Source: Pseudomonadota bacterium (lineage in GTDB: Bacteria > Pseudomonadota > Gammaproteobacteria > Burkholderiales > Rhodocyclaceae). Taken from it: a DNA stretch of 64,000 nucleotides. The stretch is taken from NCBI GenBank assembly GCA_029776255.1, contig JAKOTN010000026.1, positions 62,001 to 126,000 on the forward strand, written 5' to 3'. Positions 8,085 through 29,964 of this stretch are shown here, piece by piece. Position 1 is the first letter of the stretch. Every line of letters starts with the position of its first letter. The notes under the pieces were generated by a model. That model ran no database searches, was not told the DNA's origin, and saw only the letters and a list, made by a program, of their open reading frames with translations. The translations under genes were made by a program, and so were the position numbers.

Positions 8085-9632
8085 ATGAATGACAAGAAGG
8101 ACCATCTGTTTATATTCGATACGACCTTGCGCGATGGAGAACAGAGTCCCGGCGCTTCGATGACAAAGGAAGAGAAGCTGCGTGTCGCACGTCAACTCGA
8201 ACGTATGCAGGTCGATGTAATCGAAGCAGGCTTTGCTGCCGCCTCCCCCGGCGATTTCGACGCCATCCAGGCCATTGCCAGAATCGTCAAAGGGGCCACC
8301 GTCTGCTCTCTTGCACGTTCCAGCGAAAACGACATTCGGCGCGCGGGCGAAGCCATCGCACCGGCAACCCGTGGGCGGATTCACACCTTTATCGCCACCA
8401 GCCCGATTCATATGGAGAAAAAGCTGCGTATGACGCCCGATCAGGTCGTCGAAGCCGCCGTCCGGGCCGTGCAGTGGGCGCGCGAATACACCGACGACGT
8501 CGAATTTTCCGCCGAGGACGCCGTGCGCTCGGAGGTGGATTTTCTCTGCCGCGTGTTCGCGGAAGTCATCAAAGCCGGCGCCACGACGATCAACGTTCCC
8601 GATACCGTTGGCTACAGCATCCCGTCGGTTTGGGGAGATCTGATGAGTACGCTTATCCAGCGCGTACCGGGCGCAGACAAGGTCGTCTGGTCGACGCACT
8701 GCCACAACGACTTGGGGATGGCCGTGGCGAATTCGCTGTCCGCGGTGTTGGCAGGGGCTCGTCAGGTTGAATGCACAATCAATGGACTGGGCGAACGGGC
8801 CGGCAATGCCTCGCTGGAAGAAGTGGTGATGGCGGTAAGAACCCGGGGGGATCTGTTCCCGGTCCAGACGCGCCTTGATGCCACACAAATCGTACCAGCT
8901 TCAAAACTGGTCTCGCAGATTACCGGCTATGCCGTGCAACCGAATAAGGCGGTCGTTGGCGCCAACGCTTTTGCGCACGAGTCAGGCATACATCAGGACG
9001 GCGTGCTCAAGCACCGGGAGACTTACGAAATCATGCGTGCTGAGGATGTTGGCTGGGCACAAAACAAACTGGTGCTCGGCAAGCACTCAGGACGCAATGC
9101 CTTCAAATCGCGCTTGTCGGCACTAGGCATCGTTCTCGAAAGCGAGGAGTACCTCAATTTGGCCTTTGCCCGCTTCAAGGAACTGGCTGATAAAAAACAT
9201 GAAATTTTTGATGAGGATTTGCAGGCGCTGGTATCCGACGAAGATCTGGCAACGGACGGCGAATATTACAAATTATCGTATTCCAGAGTTTGTTCGGAAA
9301 CCGGCGAAACACCCGAAGCGTTGGTAACGCTGACAGTCGGCGGAGAAGAAAAGAAAGGCGCTGGCATTGGCAGCGGCCCGGTCGACGCCACGTTTAAAGC
9401 TATTGAATCAATTGCCGCCAGCGGTGCGCAGTTACTGCTTTACTCGGTCAACGCAATCACTACCGGAACTGACGCACAAGGTGAAGTGACTGTCCGCTTG
9501 TCCAGAGGCGGGCGGATCGTCAATGGTAATGGCGCCGATACCGACATCGTTATCGCTTCGGCCAAAGCCTATCTGAACGCACTGAACAAACTTCAGTTCC
9601 CTGACCGCGTGGACCCGCAAGGCGATGTCTGA
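8085..9632 (+). CDS. leuA: 2-isopropylmalate synthase
   Basis: 515-aa enzyme of leucine synthesis, condensing acetyl-CoA with 2-oxoisovalerate. The TIM barrel begins with [16 protein letters not shown] (catalytic Arg and metal Asp), and has the metal-binding HxH in [15 protein letters not shown] and the second signature [14 protein letters not shown]. The C-terminal 130 residues form the LeuA regulatory (leucine feedback) domain, containing [15 protein letters not shown]. Preceded by CCTGGAGTCGTGAC before ATG 8085. Last gene of the branched-chain cluster; it is followed by convergent DUF2069. Confidence 0.97.
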
Positions 9633-9674
9633 TTGAAAGTATCGACAACAGAGGAAAGGCAAGGCGACCTTTTC

Positions 9675-10619
<945 letters not shown>

Positions 10620-19065: not shown

Positions 19066-19854
19066 ATGCTGGTTGACACCCACTGCCACCTTGCGGCGAG
19101 GGAATTCGATCCCGATCGAGAAGCGGTACTCACGGCAGCGCGTGCAGTTGGCGTGTCAAAAATCGTTATACCGGCGGTGGATACGACGGACTTCGTAAAC
19201 GTACGTGATTGTTGTAAAAAATATGCCGAATGCTTTCCTGCTTACGGGATTCACCCTCTCTATGTTGCCCAAGCAAATGATGGCGACCTGGCGACATTGC
19301 GGGAATGGCTATTGGCACGTACAACTCGCGCACCGGTTGCAGTCGCTGTAGGCGAGATTGGCCTTGATCTGCATATGGCCAATACCGATCTCAAACGTCA
19401 AGAATATTTTTTCACCGAACAACTTAAAATCGCCCGCAATGCGAACCTACCGGTATTGCTGCATATTCGTCGTGCGGGAGACTTGATACTCAAGCATTTA
19501 CGTCGAATTCATGTTCGCGGCGGTATCGCACATGCCTTCAATGGCAGCGACCAGCAAGCAAAAGAATTCGTCAACCTTGGCTTCAAACTCGGTTTCGGTG
19601 GCGCCATGACATACACGGGATCGACCCGCATTCGCCGGCTGGCCACCTCTTTGCCAATCGAAAACATTGTGCTGGAAACGGATGCTCCAGACATGCCTCC
19701 CGAATGGAGTACTGGTACACGCAACGAGCCCGCGACCTTGGCGACAATCAATCATATGCTTTCGGAATTGCGCGGAATCGATGCCGACGAACTGTCTGAA
19801 CGGACTTCCGCCAACGCGATGACGGCCCTACCCCAGTTGCGTTCGCCCGGATGA
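19066..19854 (+). CDS. tatD: TatD family metal-dependent hydrolase
   Basis: 262-aa TIM-barrel hydrolase (TatD family, 3'-5' exonuclease/DNase type). Metal ligands are visible: VDTHCHL (HxH, residues 6-8), GEIGLDLH (Glu), LLHIRRAG (His), HAFNGS (His) and the Asp in ETDAPDMPP. Length is normal. Probably co-transcribed with the upstream crotonase gene. The next gene, rquA, starts 191 bp further on. Confidence 0.9.
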   Translation: MLVDTHCHLAAREFDPDREAVLTAARAVGVSKIVIPAVDTTDFVNVRDCCKKYAECFPAYGIHPLYVAQANDGDLATLREWLLARTTRAPVAVAVGEIGLDLHMANTDLKRQEYFFTEQLKIARNANLPVLLHIRRAGDLILKHLRRIHVRGGIAHAFNGSDQQAKEFVNLGFKLGFGGAMTYTGSTRIRRLATSLPIENIVLETDAPDMPPEWSTGTRNEPATLATINHMLSELRGIDADELSERTSANAMTALPQLRSPG

Positions 19855-20045: not shown

Positions 20046-20804
20046 ATGAAAAATACTTTCGACTCATCTGCCGCCACGTGCGTGGCGTTAAAAAAAAGCC
20101 TGCCTGACGTACCGCAATATTTGCAGGCGCACTACTGGTGGGCCTACGTACACCCGCGCGCCGTGCATGTCTTCGAAAGACAATGGCTGGTCAATCTGAT
20201 TCTGTGGGGCAACTATGAACGGTTGTGCAACGCGCTGCTTCTCGACTTCGAGAACCACCTGCCGGGTCGTACTCTTCAAATTGCTTGTGCATACGGCGAT
20301 CTTACCGGGCGGCTGGTAGATTGCGTCGCCCCGGGTGGCACACTGGAAATTGTAGACATCCTGCCGATCCAACTCGAGAATCTTTCAGGGAAACTGCCGC
20401 CTCAAGCGCCCGTCAAATTACACTGCATGGATTCGGCGGCGCTGGCATTTGCCGATGCGAGCTTTGATCGGGCACTGCTTTTTTTCTTATTGCATGAACA
20501 GCCGCAAGGCGTTCGTGAGAAGACATTGTCGGAAGCACTGCGAATCCTGAGGCCAGGCGGCACATTGACTATCGTAGACTATGCGCCGCCCAGTCGCCTC
20601 AATCCGTTGCGCTATTTCTGGAAACCGGTTTTAGATCGCCTAGAACCATTTGCCCGAGACCTGTTCAGCGAAGAAATCGCAACCTGGCTACCGAAGAGGG
20701 GGGGGTTTGAAACCGTCGGCAAACAGCGTTTTTTTGGCGGCATGTACCAGATGTTGACACTCAAGGTTGTTGACAACAATAACGATCGGCAACCAGTCGA
20801 GTAG
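20046..20804 (+). CDS. rquA: Rhodoquinone biosynthesis protein RquA
   Basis: 252-aa member of the RquA family, which converts ubiquinone to rhodoquinone; the family is related to class I SAM methyltransferases but places an amino group on the ring, with SAM reported as the amino donor. The family N-terminal block is unmistakable: YLQAHYWWAYVHPRAV (residues 25-40) then FERQWLVNLILWGN. The usual methyltransferase glycine loop is replaced by QIACAYGDLTGRL, as in RquA; later blocks are ALLFFLLHEQPQGVREKT and the C-terminal FFGGMYQ. Start: ATG 20046, alternative GTG 19986 (272 aa). It lies 95 bp upstream of frdABCD on the same strand, which strongly supports a role in fumarate respiration. Confidence 0.9.
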   Translation: MKNTFDSSAATCVALKKSLPDVPQYLQAHYWWAYVHPRAVHVFERQWLVNLILWGNYERLCNALLLDFENHLPGRTLQIACAYGDLTGRLVDCVAPGGTLEIVDILPIQLENLSGKLPPQAPVKLHCMDSAALAFADASFDRALLFFLLHEQPQGVREKTLSEALRILRPGGTLTIVDYAPPSRLNPLRYFWKPVLDRLEPFARDLFSEEIATWLPKRGGFETVGKQRFFGGMYQMLTLKVVDNNNDRQPVE

Positions 20805-20899
20805 TTTCGTAATTAGCAAGCCCCACTAAAGTTAGTTCTTTCGAGGCATCTCGGAGGGAGATCGTTGTCGGCAGCGTCCGACGCGTGAAAGGAGAAGGC

Positions 20900-22687
20900 G
20901 TGGAGACCTATAAAGCGGATGTAGTGATTATTGGTGGTGGTGGCGCTGGGCTGCGAGCCGCCATCGCCGTGGCCGAGTTGGACCCAAGCTTACGGATAGC
21001 CCTCGTTTCGAAGGTTTACCCGATGCGCAGCCACACCGTGGCCGCCGAAGGTGGCTCGGCCGGAGTGAAATTGCCAACTGATAAGTTGGATTACCACTTT
21101 AACGACACCGTGGCGGGTGGCGACTGGTTATGCGAGCAAGATGTGGTCGAATATTTTGTCGCCCAATGCCCGGTGGAACTGACCCAGATGGAACACTGGG
21201 GTTGTCCATGGAGCCGCACGCCGGACGGACACGTCAACGTCCGCGCGTTCGGCGGCATGAAAATCGAGCGCACGTGGTTCGCTGCCGACAAAACCGGCTT
21301 CCACATGCTGCACACGCTATTCCAAACTTCAATCAAATATCCATCGATCAAGCGTTTCGACGAACATTTCTGTGTCGACCTGGTCGTCGCCGACGGCCGC
21401 GTCCAAGGTGCGGTCACCATTGAAATCGCTTCCGGCGAGCTAACGCTGATCGAAGCCCGTGCGGCGGTCATTGCCACAGGTGGCGCAGGCCGCGTGTTCC
21501 GCGAGAACACCAACGGCGGCGTGGTGACGGGCGACGGCATGGCGTTGGCTTATCGGCATGGCGTTCCCCTACGCGACATGGAATTCGTTCAGTACCATCC
21601 GACCTGCATGCCGGGAACTGGCCTGTTGTTTACCGAAGCCTGTCGCGGCGAGGGCGGTTTCCTGGTAAATAAGGACGGCTACCGTTATCTGCAGGATTAC
21701 GGTCTCGGACCAGCCGAGCCCACGCCACGAAACAAAGCCATGGAACTGGGTCCGCGTGACCGGCTTAGCCAAGCCTTCTGGTACGAACAACAAAAGGGCC
21801 GGACCATTGACGGGCCGCACGGTTCGGTAGTGCATTTGGATCTCCGCCATCTCGGCGAGGCTAAACTGCGCGAGCGTCTGCCGCAGATTTACGAATTGGC
21901 CGAACAGTTTCTCGGCGTCGATCCGGCGTTGGCACCGATCCCGGTGCGACCTGCCGTCCATTACACCATGGGCGGCATCATGGTTGACGGACTTTGCGCC
22001 TCGCCGTTGCCGGGACTTTATGCCGCGGGCGAATGTTCGAGCGTTGGCATCCATGGCGCCAACCGGCTGGGTTCAAACTCACTTTCGGAGTTGTGTGTAT
22101 TCGGCAAACGCGCCGGAGAGGAAGCGGCCAACTTCGCCAAGTCGGTACCGCCGGGCCATTCGGCGGAACTGCTCAAACAGGCGCAAGCCGTGGAACAGCG
22201 CGTACTTGGCATGGTGAAGAAGACCGGCGGCAACGAACGCATTGCCACCTTGCGCAAGGAAATGGCACAGACCATGGAAGACGGTTGCGGTATTTATCGC
22301 CTGGCCGACACCATGCAGAAAACTTGCGACAAACTCGATGAGCTCAAACAACGCTTTAAAAATGTTCATATCGAAGACAAATCCAGCGTCTGGAACACCG
22401 AATGGCTGCTGGCAATCGAATTGGAATATCAACTCGACGTGGCACAAGCGATGGCGTATTCCGCACTCAATCGACGCGAGTCACGCGGCGCCCATCAGCG
22501 CCTGGACGGCTTCGAAGCGCGCGACGACGTCAACTTCCTGAAGCACTCGCAAGCCCACTATGTCGCCGACGGTGCGCCACGTATCGACTACGGCCCGGTC
22601 AAGATCACCAAATCGCAGCCGGGTACCCGCGCCTACGGTGCCGCCGGCGAAAAGGCGGAGCAGGAAAGGAATGCCTCACATGTCTGA
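20900..22687 (+). CDS. frdA: Fumarate reductase flavoprotein subunit
   Basis: 595-aa catalytic subunit of quinol:fumarate reductase, closely resembling E. coli FrdA along its whole length. FAD fold [18 protein letters not shown]; the histidine that binds FAD covalently is in [13 protein letters not shown] (about residue 45); the active-site region is [14 protein letters not shown] with the catalytic Arg, and [11 protein letters not shown] holds the substrate His. Start: GTG 20900, because AGGAG lies 6 bp upstream; an earlier GTG at 20885 would have no ribosome-binding site. It overlaps frdB by 8 bp. FrdA-type rather than SdhA-type features, together with two small membrane anchors downstream, separate it from succinate dehydrogenase. 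Confidence 0.96.
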
Positions 22688-23435
22688 CATCCAAAAAGTC
22701 ATCGAAATAGAAGTCCTGCGCTACAACCCGGAAACGGACAAAGCTCCTTCCAGTCAAGTCTTCGAAGTCCCGTTCACCGACGACATGTCGGTTCTGCAGG
22801 GCGTCCAGTACATCAAGGACTATCTTGACGGTTCCCTGAGTTTCCGCTGGTCGTGCCGCATGGCCATTTGCGGTAGTTGCGGCATGATGATCAACGGCGT
22901 GCCGCACTTGTCCTGCGAAACCTTCCTGCGCGACTATTATCCGGCACGCGTGCGCGTCGAAGCTCTCAACCATTTCCCGATTGAGCGCGATCTGGTGATC
23001 AATATGGAGGGTTTTATCAACAAACTGGAAAGCATCCAACCCTACATCATTCCGAAGGAACCGCGCACACTAGCCCAGGGCGAGTACCTTCAGACACCTG
23101 AGCAGCTCAATCTGTACGAGCAATTCAGTTCGTGCATCAACTGTATGCTTTGCTATGCCGCTTGCCCCCAGTTTGGCCTCAATCCCGACTTCATCGGCCC
23201 GGCGGCAACGGCCTTGCTGCACCGCTACAACGTCGATTCGCGCGATGGCGGCAAGGAAGAGCGGATGGATTTAGTCCGCTCCGAGGAGGGTGTTTTCCAT
23301 TGCACGGCCGTTGGCTACTGCTCGGAAGTTTGTCCAAAACACGTCGATCCAGCCAACGCCGTCAATCAAAACAAAACCAATGCGGCGGTGGATTATTTCC
23401 TGCGTTTCGTTTCCCCGAAGGGAGGTGCAAAGTGA
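22680..23435 (+). CDS. frdB: Fumarate reductase iron-sulfur subunit
   Basis: 251-aa electron-transfer subunit linking the quinol site to FrdA. Cysteine motifs for all three clusters are present: [2Fe-2S] in [21 protein letters not shown] (about 60-80), [4Fe-4S] in [12 protein letters not shown] (about 151-162), and [3Fe-4S] with the closing cysteine in [16 protein letters not shown] 22680 is chosen because AAGGA lies at correct spacing from it; ATG 22671 directly abuts the same AAGGA. It overlaps frdA by 8 bp and the frdC GTG by 4 bp. Confidence 0.96.
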
Positions 23436-23830
23436 GCAAGCGTCGTCCCTATGTTCGTCCAATGGACGGTTGGTGGCGGAAAAACCCCTATTTCGTCGAG
23501 TACATGATTCACGAAGGCACGGCATTCTTTGTCGCCGCATACGCAGCCGTCCTGCTTGTCGGACTTGTTCGTCTGTCACAAGGTGAGGCCGCCTGGAACG
23601 GCTGGCTGCACTCACTCACCAGCCCGTGGTATGTTCTTTTCCACCTAGCGGCACTGTTAGCCATCACCTACCACACCTATACGTGGTTCAAGATCATGCC
23701 GCGCACCATGCCACCGGTCGTCGTCGGTGGCGAAAGATTGCCGGCATGGGCGATTACTGGCACCGGACTGGCAGTAGCTGCCGCCGCCGGTATCGGTTTA
23801 CTGGCTTTTGTATGGGGGATGGCACGATGA
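23432..23830 (+). CDS. frdC: Fumarate reductase membrane anchor subunit C
   Basis: 132-aa anchor protein with three membrane helices (about 30-50, 63-83, 105-128), the E. coli FrdC layout; the N-terminus [28 protein letters not shown] is family-typical. It starts with GTG (overlapping the frdB stop) after GGGAGG. It and FrdD hold the quinol site and carry no haem in this class; the quinol is probably rhodoquinol, given rquA upstream. Confidence 0.93.
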
Positions 23831-24195
23831 AACCCACTTTGAAACGTTCCAACGCACCCATTTTCTGGGCTCTTTTTGGCGCTGGTGGCATGCTGTCGGC
23901 CTTATTCGGACCAATGCTGGTGTTTATCACCGGATTGGCTATTCCTCTTGGCCTTTTATTGCCGGCGGATGCCCTAAGTTACCCGAAAATGCTGGCTTTC
24001 ACGCAAAATTTCATCGGTAAAGGCTTCGTCTTCGCCGTCATCGCGCTCTTTTTGTGGCATGCCGCGCACCGTATTTTCCATAGCCTGCACGATATTGGAA
24101 TCCACGCTGGCACCGGAGCGAAATTGGCATGCTATGGGTCGGCAATGGTTGGCACAGTAATTGCCGCGTACGCACTACTGTCGATCGGCTTCTAA
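23827..24195 (+). CDS. frdD: Fumarate reductase membrane anchor subunit D
   Basis: 122-aa anchor with three membrane helices (about 15-45, 62-82, 98-119). The N-terminal KRSNAPIFWALFGAGGM and the HAAHRIFHSLHDIGIH segment near the quinol pocket match FrdD. The start overlaps the frdC stop (ATGA). Last gene of the frd operon; 141 bp with no clear terminator separate it from convergent ycgR. Confidence 0.93.
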   Translation: MKPTLKRSNAPIFWALFGAGGMLSALFGPMLVFITGLAIPLGLLLPADALSYPKMLAFTQNFIGKGFVFAVIALFLWHAAHRIFHSLHDIGIHAGTGAKLACYGSAMVGTVIAAYALLSIGF

Positions 24196-25615: not shown

Positions 25616-27070
25616 TTAGAGGACTTGATTGACCAAGCGATCGGCGCGCGTGCGCGCAAGGCGTTTGAGAAGGCGTTGCACAGGCAACGGATAACTGTCG
25701 ATAGCATCCAGCGAGCGATGATGGTCAAGGCGACGGGCGTGCGTCAAAATTCCCTGTAATTCACGATGATGACTTTCAAGGAGACACGCTTGCGGATCGT
25801 GAATCAATAAGCCATTCTCCAGATCCAGTCGCCAAGCGCGGGGATTGATATTACTGCCTGTCAACAAGGCATAATCGTCGTCCACCAGCAGGCCCTTGAG
25901 GTGAAAGCTGTGGCTTTCGTGACGCCATAGATACAAATCCAGCAAACCTTCATCGACGGCGTTTTGGTGCGTCTTGCAGAAGCGGCGCAAGTTGGCCTCG
26001 TACAGATAAGGTAAGGCGCCAATAGTCGTAAACGGCTCGCTCGGCGGAATAAAGAAATCATTCGCCGTCTTGTCGCCGACGATAAGGGCTACTTGGCAAC
26101 GCTGGCGGATTTTCTCGTCGATGGCCCGGCGCACGGCACCCGGCAGATTGAAATAAGGAGTAAAAACGACCAAGCGCCGCCGTGCGCGCTGGATCAACTG
26201 GAGCACAACGCTGTTGAGCTGATTGTCCCCTGGGCCAAAGCCCAACAGAGGCGAGATCCCGACCTCGCCTTCCCGGAGCGAACCCGACGCTGTCGTATAG
26301 ACGCTTTTTGCCAATTCCCGGCGAAACCTGCCAATAGCACCCCGTAGCGAACTGGTTTTAGGCCGGACCTCGGTATCCAATGGGCAAACCGCCGGACTGA
26401 CGTGCAAGACCTTCATCATGAAAGCCGCCATGCTGTCGGCCAGTTGTCGGTTTTCGATCAGATGATAGCGATCCAGACGATAGCGCCCGTGCCGATGAAG
26501 ATAAACGTCGTTCAGACTGGCGCCGCTGTAGAGCAACGCGTCGTCGATGACGAAACCTTTAAGATGCATCACCCCCATTAGCTCCCGCGTCTGGACGGCG
26601 ACACCGTAGATCGGCACCCCCGGTCCAAAGCGGCGCGCCATTTCAGCATACATGGCCGCATTACCCTTGCCGGTACCCTTGCCGATCAGTCCCCGTTGCG
26701 CGCGATGCCAATCGACAAACACCGCAACCTGCAGGCCGGGCCGGCGCGCCTTGACCGCATACAGTGCGGCAAGCACTTCTTTACCAGCGTCGTCGTCTTG
26801 CAGATAAAGAGTGCTGATCAGAATTCGCTGGCTCGCACATCCGATGAGCCGCAACAGGGTTTCGCGAAACGCATCCGGACCCGGCAAGTTCTGAATGCAA
26901 TGGGCGGCAACCGGTAGACAGGGCAAGCCCTCCAGACCTGTGATGCGCCGGCTTCCACCGCGCAAACGCCGCATTGCCATCACGAACGCCGACGACCGTC
27001 CAACTGGTGAGACCGATTGATTTTGGGCCGCTGGAGAAGAAGTCGCCACCAAGGAAGCGTCAGAGTGCAT
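25616..27070 (-). CDS. Phosphatidylserine synthase, type I (phospholipase D family, E. coli PssA-like)
   Basis: 484-aa protein of the PLD superfamily that matches E. coli PssA throughout. Two HKD half-sites are seen: [19 protein letters not shown] (about residues 170-190) and [20 protein letters not shown] (about 390-410), with diagnostic blocks [42 protein letters not shown] and [17 protein letters not shown]. It makes phosphatidylserine from CDP-diacylglycerol as a peripheral, soluble-type enzyme. The start overlaps the prpD stop by 11 bp, an unusual operon partner. The window already has a type II PssA (7276-8040), so two non-homologous enzymes for one reaction are present. Compared with E. 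coli it has an N-terminal extension of about 40 Ser/Ala-rich residues. Confidence 0.9.
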
Positions 27071-28502
27071 ATAGATCGAGGTAGTCGTTGACCGGCATGT
27101 CGCTCAATTCCCGCATGTTCAATGAAGAATCGAGAATAACCGTTTGTTGGTTCGCGGGAAACCGCCGGGCAAGATTGACGCGAAACTTATCAACCAATAC
27201 CGGAATCCCTTCGGCACGTCGTCGCAAGTGACCAAGCGGATACTCTGAAACCACTTCCGCCGTTCGGCTACCATCGGAGAAAAGTATTTGCACCGCATTG
27301 GCAATCGACCGCTTGTCGGGGTCAAGATAGTCGGCAGAAAAGCGCTGATCCTCGAGAACCGTGATTTTCGCGCGCAGGACATCGATGCGAGGATCCGCGG
27401 CCGCCTCATCCTCATAGTCCTCGCAACTCAGCTTCCCCTTGATCAGCGCCACGGCAAACATGTATTGCAGGCAATGATCACGGTCCGCGGGATTGTGCAA
27501 GACACCCTTCTTATCGATGATTCGCAGCGCCGATTCGTGGCTACGGATCACTATCCGGCTGATCTCGTCCAGGCGTCCTGCGACTTGCGGATGCAATACC
27601 ACCGCACATTCAACCGCCGTCTGCGCGTGGAACTCTGCGGGATAGCTGATTTTAAACAACACGTTCTCCATGACGTAACTGCCATACGATCGTGGCAAAC
27701 GAAACGCCTGCCCTTTGAAGAGCGCATCGTAAAACCCCCAAGTCGGCGCGGTGAGTACCGACGGATACCCCATCTCGCCCTTGAGTGAAAACAATGCCAG
27801 CATTACCCCACGTGCGGTAGCGTCGCCAGCCGCCCACGATTTTCGAGAGCCGGTATTAGGCGCGTGACGATAAGTACGCAAGGGTGGCCCGTCGACGAAA
27901 GCCTGTGACACCGCGTTGATGACCTGCTGACGATCGCCGCCGAGCAACCAAGTACAAACGGCGGCTGTCGCCACCTTGACCAGCAAGACATGATCCAGTC
28001 CGACACGATTGAAACTGTTTTCCAGCGCCAGCACACCCTGTATCTCGTAGGCCTTGACCGTCGCCTCAAGCACTCGCTGCATGCGGAGAGGCTCTTGTCC
28101 ATGGGCAATACGGGTCCGCGATAGCCAATCGGCCGTGGCAAGAATGCCGCCCAGATTATCAGACGGATGCCCCCATTCCGCCGCCAGCCAAGTGTCGTTG
28201 AAATCGAGCCAGCGAATCAGTGTGCCGATGTTGAACGCCGCCAATACCGGATCGAGGCGGTATCCGGTACCGGGGACTCTGGCACCGTCGGGAACCACGG
28301 TGCCAGGCACGACAGGGCCAAGCAATTTAGTACATGCAGGATAGCCGAGCGCTTCGAGACCACAGCCAAGCGCATCGATCAAACAGTAACGCGCAGTCTC
28401 GAAAGCGCCTATCGAAACCACCCGATAATCGATCACGTAATCGGCAATACCCGCCAGGATGTGATCGGGTTCGGGACGTTGATCTGAAATTCGTGTACTC
28501 AT
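27060..28502 (-). CDS. prpD: 2-methylcitrate dehydratase (MmgE/PrpD family)
   Basis: 480-aa PrpD-type enzyme dehydrating 2-methylcitrate in the methylcitrate cycle for propionyl-CoA oxidation. Conserved blocks: [92 protein letters not shown], and [18 protein letters not shown] 28502 has GGGAG 8 bp upstream, which decides the start over a longer open frame. It lies 93 bp behind prpC. No prpB (methylisocitrate lyase) or acnD/prpF is in the window. Confidence 0.92.
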
Positions 28503-28595
28503 AAAGGCTCCCTGTACCACGGCACGGCGGCGAATGGCAGCAGAAACGGGAAGACGCCATCTCTTGGCGCCGAAACCGGGCGCCCCACGGGGCAC

Positions 28596-29753
28596 TTATC
28601 TTCGTTCCGCCAAAGGCACGAATTCTTGCACCTCTGGCCCAACATAATTCGCTGAAGGGCGGATGATCTTTCCATCGGCACGCTGTTCGATCACATGCGC
28701 CGTCCAGCCGCTAGTCCGCGCAATGACGAACAAGGGCGTAAACATCGCGGTCGGAACCGCGAGCATGTGATAGGCCACCGCGGAAAACCAATCGACATTT
28801 GGAAAGATTCGTTTCCGCTCCCACATCACCTCCTCAATCCGACTAGCGATATCGAAAAGTACTTTATTGTCGCCGTCGGCACACAATTGCTCCGCAACCG
28901 CTCGAATCGCGCAATTGCGCGGATCAGCGGTCCGGTACAACGGATGCCCGAATCCGATGATGATTTCCCGGCTATTAAGGCGACGGCAAATGTCCTGCTC
29001 GGCATGCTCTGGATGGTCGTAGCGGCTCTGAATCTCGAACGCCACCTCGTTGGCGCCTCCGTGTCGAGGTCCACTTAACGCCCCGATGGCGCCGCTGAGA
29101 GCGGCGTAGAGATCCGCGCCGGTACCGGCAATCGTCCTGGCGGTAAAAGTCGAGGCATTAAATTCGTGTTCGGCGTACAGGACAAGCGATTTGTCCAGAC
29201 TGGCCGCCTGCAATGCCGTTGGCGCTTTCCCGTGGAGCAGGTGTAAAAAGTGTGCCGCTATCGACTCATCGTCGGTTTCGGTTTCGATTCGTCGCCCGTT
29301 GTGCGACCAGTGATACCAGTAAAGCAACATGGAGGGGAAACTGGCGGTCAATCGGTCGGCGAGTTCCCGTGCGCCACCCGGATTGTGATCTTGCGACTCC
29401 GGAAGAATTGTCCCGAGAGCCGAACAACCGCTACGCAGGACATCCATCGGATGCGCCGATGCGGGAAGATTTTCCAACACCGGCCTCAGCATGACCGGCA
29501 AGCCGCGAAGCGTTTTCAGTTTTTTCTTGTATTGGTTTAGCCGTGTCAGACTGGGCAAATTACCATACAGCAGGAGATAAGCCACTTCTTCAAACGTCGC
29601 GTGTTCGGCCAACGCAACGACGTCGTAGCCGCGATAATAGAGATCGTTACCCGACCGGCCAGCCGAACAAATCGCCGTATCGCCGGCAAGCACTCCAGAC
29701 AAGGCGACCGATTTTTTTGTTTTCGGCATCTCGTTTTCCGGTTTGTCGTCCAT
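28596..29753 (-). CDS. prpC: 2-methylcitrate synthase
   Basis: 385-aa citrate synthase-family enzyme condensing propionyl-CoA with oxaloacetate. Typical PrpC features: N-terminal [25 protein letters not shown]; catalytic histidines in [18 protein letters not shown] and [22 protein letters not shown]; and the catalytic Asp in the [13 protein letters not shown] region. ATG 29753 is preceded by AGGAGGGGG, a strong ribosome-binding site. The 211 bp upstream (29754-29964) hold the likely prp promoter; no PrpR gene is near. Confidence 0.93.
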
Positions 29754-29964
29754 CACCCCCTCCTGAAGCCACACCCGCGAACATGGCAGCCCGGTTATTT
29801 CAGATCGTCGCCCGATGCGCGGCCAAAACCCTACGATACAAAAAAACGATGGGGCAATCGCGCGATAGATCGATGCGGTCAGCAACCGATTGTCGCCGTG
29901 CGCACTTCCGATATCCACTCTGCCGGAAAAGAGAGATCCGTCGATCGCCTACCGGCACACCAAA

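Follow-up and report, generated by a model that had tools for sequence, protein, structure and literature searches.

Introduction

Linkage of rquA, the gene for the enzyme of rhodoquinone synthesis, to genes of respiratory complexes was reported by Stairs et al. (2018; PMC5953543), who found it, in many genomes, no more than 15 genes away from such genes, those of complex II among them, and suggested a possible operon. Candidatus (Ca.) Thiosymbion oneisti has both rquA and frdABCD, and rhodoquinone was proposed to replace the missing menaquinone there (PMC8269255). A D118/D143 double mutant of Rhodospirillum rubrum RquA made no rhodoquinone-8 (RQ8; PMC9814641), and a 2024 survey of quinones in Pseudomonadota asks whether the gain of a low-potential quinone came with the gain of fumarate reductase (PMC11707229). 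Here we analyse a locus that bears on this question: positions 20046-24195 of a 64,000 nucleotide stretch of DNA (contig JAKOTN010000026.1, assembly GCA_029776255.1; the whole stretch is called the window below), where rquA lies directly upstream of frdABCD, the genes of an E. coli-class quinol:fumarate reductase (Frd). The window genome is a 3.79 Mb draft in 171 contigs (completeness 100, contamination 0.22) and belongs to the genus that holds the sludge bacterium Ca. Accumulibacter.

The type of linkage is already known. The main text of Stairs et al. (2018) does not name Accumulibacter but describes the same kind of rquA-complex II linkage. The pairing highlighted in an earlier sequence-only reading of the window is real but, with such linkage already published, less surprising than it was taken to be there. 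Compared with the published survey, the linkage here is immediate and genus-wide, a sister locus without rquA was compared, and the class of the frd genes and the menaquinone markers were checked. What the present analysis adds is that the arrangement is fixed in Accumulibacter, that a sister locus has no rquA, that no menaquinone marker was found in the window genome, and that one residue of the quinone pocket is a candidate for adaptation. For Ca. T. oneisti, unlike for the window, the sections of PMC8269255 on these genes do not state an rquA-frd adjacency; two other Thiosymbion loci (L125, L131) have no frd within the stretch around rquA. Our literature search, with subscription papers and preprints outside its range, found no paper placing rquA or rhodoquinone in Accumulibacter. 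PMC13310139 names Accumulibacter, and the rhodoquinol it mentions concerns the ciliate host.

Results

The rquA-frdABCD locus and its proposed function

Judging from gene identities, order and conservation, we are fairly confident that rquA-frdABCD is a unit for rhodoquinol-fumarate respiration. RquA would exchange a methoxy group of ubiquinone for an amino group taken from S-adenosylmethionine (SAM), yielding rhodoquinone, a quinone of low potential. Without oxygen, dehydrogenases (complex I being the probable one) would reduce the rhodoquinone, and FrdABCD would oxidise the rhodoquinol and convert fumarate to succinate, assuming that electrons flow in this direction. The succinate could go on to propionyl-CoA and possibly storage polymer. 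The proposed pairing of quinone maker and quinone user gains support from the genus-wide fixation of the arrangement, from recurrent linkage elsewhere and from the window genome, in which no menaquinone route was detected by MenD or MqnC. The features of the locus are:

20046-20804, + strand: rquA, ATG at 20046 to TAG at 20804, 252 aa; putative SAM-dependent enzyme converting ubiquinone to rhodoquinone; NF038261 (NCBIfam equivalog), 277.1 bits (cut-off 175)
20805-20899, + strand: rquA-frdA gap, 95 bp, with the frdA ribosome site AAAGGAG
20820-20847, + strand: gap hairpin 1, covarying stem in 17 aligned gaps; weak in the window species, where 4 of 5 conserved pairs form
20863-20885, + strand: gap hairpin 2 (frdA leader stem), covarying stem directly 5' of the ribosome site
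20900-22687, + strand: frdA, flavoprotein subunit, GTG start; NF006686, 1047.8 bits (cut-off 854); TIGR01176, 962.1 bits (cut-off 932.7)
22671-23435, + strand: frdB, iron-sulphur subunit, ATG at 22671 (alternative 22680); NF009051, 417.1 bits (cut-off 333)
23432-23830, + strand: frdC, membrane anchor, GTG start; PF02300, 146.6 bits (cut-off 24.2); aligned to 1kf6_C
23510-23515, + strand: FrdC codons for His (position of E. coli Arg28) and Glu (position of E. coli Glu29), from the alignment to 1kf6_C
23827-24195, + strand: frdD, membrane anchor, ATG start; NF003977, 151.4 bits (cut-off 60); PF02313, 147.2 bits
19066-19854, + strand: tatD-family gene (PF01026), 5' neighbour of the probable insertion site; the same flank is found with and without rquA

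The gene positions and the same-strand order given in the sequence-only reading were borne out: rquA is followed after 95 bp by an intact set of overlapping frd genes. frdA and frdB overlap by 17 bases (8 with the alternative frdB start), frdB and frdC by 4 and frdC and frdD by 4; an alternative in-frame GTG for frdA at 20885 would shrink the gap to 80 bp. FrdA, B, C and D with two hydrophobic anchors make up an enzyme of the E. coli class, FrdC being far over its Pfam cut-off and below the NCBIfam one (94.2 vs 143 bits).

RquA is over its equivalog cut-off, and models of UbiE and MenG type scored at most 36.2 bits against cut-offs of at least 158 (the best UbiE model 36.2 of 216), so the protein is RquA and not an ordinary methyltransferase, as had been proposed. 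Asp104 and Asp129 are invariant in all 23 aligned RquA sequences (the window and 22 of 30 family loci). Their 25-residue spacing is that of D118/D143 in R. rubrum RquA (PMC9814641), a member of the same equivalog family from a different organism; the correspondence was drawn from this spacing. The SAM motif I of the window protein is ACAYGDLTG, and similar motifs (e.g. ACVYGDFS, AHVYGDLV) are found in the other 22 sequences of this alignment, which consisted of RquA only. The usual pattern of SAM motif I, GxGxG, is not present in the window RquA.

Conservation in the genus and menaquinone markers

rquA was found in 26 of 28 genus genomes (in two pieces in G204); the two without it, G201 and G210, are 93% and 72% complete. 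In all 26 it immediately precedes frdA, on the same strand and with 85-164 bases between the match ends (the frdA match of G200 is cut by a contig end). Since this order is kept in every rquA-bearing genome of the genus, the adjacency is not due to chance. Flanks were compared in 20 relatives (L067-L084, L088, L090). tatD precedes rquA in all of them, dadA and spoT were found in 19 each, and ycgR follows frd in 17; two of the remaining loci end too early (L076, L077) and one gave no match (L068). A gene for enoyl-CoA hydratase is present at 9 of the 20 loci, and the rquA and frdA matches of L090 look broken. In a locus titled Dechloromonas (L085) rquA and frdA are separated by 15 bp, and tatD gave no match.

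The window genome contains no MenD over the cut-off and no MqnC match of any kind, and MqnC was over the cut-off in none of 199 genomes of the family. Rhodoquinone is therefore the only low-potential quinone predicted by these markers in the window genome, and menaquinone as the partner quinone finds no support there by MenD or MqnC. That FrdABCD uses menaquinol as in E. coli, with rquA a coincidental neighbour, seems very improbable to us: frd is also kept in genus genomes without MenD over the cut-off. The rquA-frd unit is stable across a genus in which MenD is patchy. What speaks for menaquinol is the E. coli-class enzyme with its invariant FrdC Glu29 and FrdB Lys228, together with MenD over the cut-off in 12 of the 28 genus genomes, 11 of which have rquA. 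A menaquinone pathway is listed for Accumulibacter phosphatis (PMC3914697). As a separate observation, PMC11707229 describes the co-occurrence of RquA and menaquinone as infrequent (5 of the 84 RquA-bearing genomes there), to be compared with these 11 genomes.

Linkage beyond the genus

The scan of named genomes covered the best 80 rquA loci and is not an even sample. Accumulibacter-type loci make up 21 of them: 19 have Accumulibacter in the title, one has Pseudomonadota and one Dechloromonas (L077 is cut within frdA). frdABCD lies beside rquA in 12 of the 59 others; counting only the 32 of these whose flanks reach 4.5 kb or more on each side, it does so in 7. The 12 linked loci are scattered on the RquA tree, and rquA is located before frd in three, after frd in three and convergent to it in six. 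The cultured bacterium Ramlibacter lithotrophicus (L141) shows the same linkage as the window. L105 was left out of the count. Immediately before its rquA is an FrdA-like gene (50% identical, 8277-9971), with no FrdC or FrdD match, possibly a different type of complex II linked to rquA.

In the 199 family genomes frdC is present in 24 of 61 with rquA vs 22 of 138 without (Fisher p = 5e-4, phylogeny ignored). Six of the 24 genomes with both, all from the window's genus, have the genes adjacent; in the other 18 they are either separated by 0.3 to 4 Mb of a shared contig (six genomes) or located on different contigs (twelve). An even sample of 321 genomes of the class contained 17 with rquA over the cut-off and seven with full-length frdC, which was present in 3 of the 17 vs 4 of the 304 without rquA (p = 0.004, phylogeny ignored). 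All three genomes with both genes have them adjacent, and the window genome, included in both samples, is one of the three. Weak FrdC matches were dropped (in the family G155, with 24.7 bits, and three below the cut-off; in the class those under 25 bits), and G431 was counted as lacking rquA, its 173.4-bit match on another contig being just under the cut-off.

Rhodoquinone might also be made for other enzymes while Frd runs on ubiquinone, e.g. as succinate dehydrogenase (SDH). We regard this as unlikely, because rquA is fixed at frd throughout the genus and linked to it repeatedly elsewhere, and because the window genome keeps a separate SDH, with genes of SdhC, SdhD and SdhA type side by side on contig C89. 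The idea fits the 37 of 61 rquA-bearing family genomes without an frdC match, and the loss of SDH with fumarate reductase kept in Ca. Accumulibacter symbioticus (PMC13310139). It would also fit a set of 15 family genomes suggesting that Frd-type enzymes may function where no low-potential quinone is known.

These 15 genomes (loci L058, L060-L062, L148-L151, L153-L157, L159 and L160; genera g2, g7, g18, g46 and g68), of which some reach only about 80% completeness, encode an Frd-type enzyme that does not fall in the Frd clade of the window, and have no RquA, MenD or MqnC over the cut-off. FrdC His82 is changed to Asn in nine of them. They may represent a fumarate reductase with no known low-potential quinone.

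The SDH genes on C89 also led us to reject the idea that the window comes from the reduced symbiont Ca. A. symbioticus, described as lacking SDH (PMC13310139). Two other genus genomes, G215 and G220 (90% and 93% complete), have no SdhC or SdhD over the cut-off and no SdhA-type match, with rquA and frdA intact. This is either SDH loss as reported for that symbiont or the result of gaps.

Origin of the arrangement

The Frd of genus g52 is sister to that of Accumulibacter, L085 included, in the Frd tree. In four of five g52 loci rquA is absent and frdABCD comes next after tatD, at a distance of 143 to about 292 bp; dadA precedes tatD in three of these four, and spoT was found in three. All five g52 genomes carry rquA on another contig. 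In view of this rquA-free order, rquA probably entered the locus in the Accumulibacter lineage by insertion between tatD and the leader of frdA, the alternative being that g52 lost rquA from this site. The inserted gene would belong to a subgroup unlike the rquA of most sampled Rhodocyclaceae: when 130 RquA sequences were placed in a tree, all but one of the 30 family loci included (from the best 30 of 61 genomes, the window's genus not among them) formed one clade (support 100) apart from Accumulibacter RquA, which groups with L086 and L087.

Insertion would have left the frdA leader in place. The leader end GCGAGAAAGGA is common to three g52 loci and most Accumulibacter gaps; L250 and the window deviate from it at one or two positions. 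The word CATAAT or CATACT occurs in all four g52 tatD-frdA gaps and in none of 21 rquA-frdA gaps. As rquA now occupies the place of this promoter-like word, frd probably depends on transcription through rquA. At this locus frd seems to have come first. This concerns the order of events at the locus; since g52 carries an rquA of its own at another place, the locus history does not tell which function was gained earlier.

The intergenic gap

The gap between rquA and frdA is 82-151 bp long in 19 relatives, and 15 bp in L085. Simple scans of the 95-bp gap of the window revealed no terminator-like or sigma-70-like promoter site; the sequence-only reading had named a strong promoter or terminator here, with unrelated expression, as grounds against the pairing. 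The gap does carry two hairpins, though: in 17 aligned gaps (of 21) two shared stems were found with 92.2% of the alignment cells paired, compared to 31-49% when the stems were slid, and 7 of 12 pairs show changes on both sides. A short T-rich stretch often comes after hairpin 1. Hairpin 2 directly precedes the ribosome site, and a similar leader end in this region is found in g52, which has no rquA at the site. In folding energy one of six gaps was clearly more stable than its shuffles (L070, z -2.88); the window gap was not (z 0.83). Our guess is that the stems set the ratio of RquA and Frd products.

These data bear on whether rquA and frd are separate transcription units whose adjacency goes back to an accident of insertion and was then inherited. 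One ancestral event would explain the adjacency throughout the genus, and a gap of this length with its covarying hairpins fits such an arrangement. Against it, linkage recurs in other lineages, though six of the 12 loci there are convergent and so do not form one transcript; a -10-like word is absent from 19 of the 21 gaps, both exceptions having it beside the rquA stop codon; and the g52 word is missing from all 21. We give separate units little credence and prefer joint transcription of rquA and frd.

Control of rquA by FNR was considered and rejected: the site nearest to rquA that has at most two mismatches, 19738-19751, lies within tatD, some 300 bp ahead of the gene. The FNR-like pattern (up to two mismatches) occurs 50 times in the whole window vs 23 expected from shuffles.

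Several observations weigh against rhodoquinol-fumarate respiration by a jointly expressed unit. The conserved gap hairpin could reduce read-through from rquA into frdA. No FNR-type site lies close by, and nothing of the kind is conserved upstream of rquA or in the gap. More than half of the rquA-bearing family genomes (37 of 61) show no frdC match, and only the six of the window's genus, among the 24 with both genes, have rquA and frdC adjacent. Menaquinol could serve the Frd of the 12 MenD-bearing genus genomes, and two others (G205, G208) hold end fragments of MenD (106 and 80 bits), maybe from a broken menD. Finally, the window genome carries the separate SDH in addition.

The quinone site

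To compare the quinone site we used an Frd alignment of 85 rows (84 loci and E. coli, with some genomes present twice). The window enzyme shares with E. coli FrdABCD (1kf6 chains) the four subunits, FrdC Glu29 and FrdB Lys228, both residues being invariant in all 85 rows. We take Arg28 of E. coli FrdC to line the proximal quinone site, whose residues also include FrdC Glu29 and FrdB Lys228. The window differs from E. coli in FrdC Arg28, replaced by His, in FrdB Gln225, replaced by Asn (1kf6_B), and in the window genome having no menaquinone marker detected. No paper naming E. coli FrdC Arg28 as a quinone contact was found in the literature search. Glu29 has been suggested as a proton shuttle, and drug contacts were predicted for Arg25 of the Mycobacterium tuberculosis homologue, next to its Glu26 (PMC5907181).

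His occupies position 28 in 46 rows. Of these, 44 have rquA and the other two come from genera with rquA-bearing members; put differently, His is found in 44 of 58 rquA-bearing rows vs 2 of 27 others. Arg is present in 36 rows (11 with rquA) and Met in three, all with rquA. The sequence-only reading had proposed that the pocket may have adapted to rhodoquinol. The distribution of His28 is suggestive of this, but the His28 rows are nearly one clade. Genus g59, with MenD, without rquA and with Arg28, is nested inside this clade in the best trees with modest support; a tree with g59 outside is 12.6 log units worse but is not rejected by the approximately unbiased test (p = 0.217). Several independent adaptations to His28 were rejected as an interpretation, since a single origin of His withstands this test and 11 of the 58 rquA-bearing rows keep Arg and three have Met.

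A bolder scenario, which we consider rather doubtful as a whole, is that FrdC residue 28 sets the quinone specificity. The insertion of rquA would have put frd under the same control as rhodoquinone synthesis, His in the proximal quinone site would suit the amino-quinol, the related menaquinone-bearing genus without rquA would have reverted to Arg, and the unit would be an electron sink allowing the bacteria to live off glycogen when polyphosphate is scarce.

Physiological context and neighbouring genes

The rquA-frd unit suggests a possible route of electron disposal for these phosphorus-storing bacteria when oxygen runs out, and its presence throughout the genus points to RQ-8 as a measurable carrier. 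Surplus reducing equivalents derived from glycogen are believed to enter the reductive branch of the tricarboxylic acid cycle, and a different quinol outlet, a novel quinol reductase, was proposed for Accumulibacter (PMC4930944). Transcription of Accumulibacter frdAB was up at low phosphate in one of two experiments in a study whose main text does not contain the word quinone (PMC12604563).

The 2-methylcitrate genes prpCD were rejected as a conserved partner of frd, with no match in the stretches around frd at 23 loci. In the window itself prpD and prpC, coding for 2-methylcitrate dehydratase and synthase, are located at 27060-29918 on the - strand, about 3 kb past frdD.

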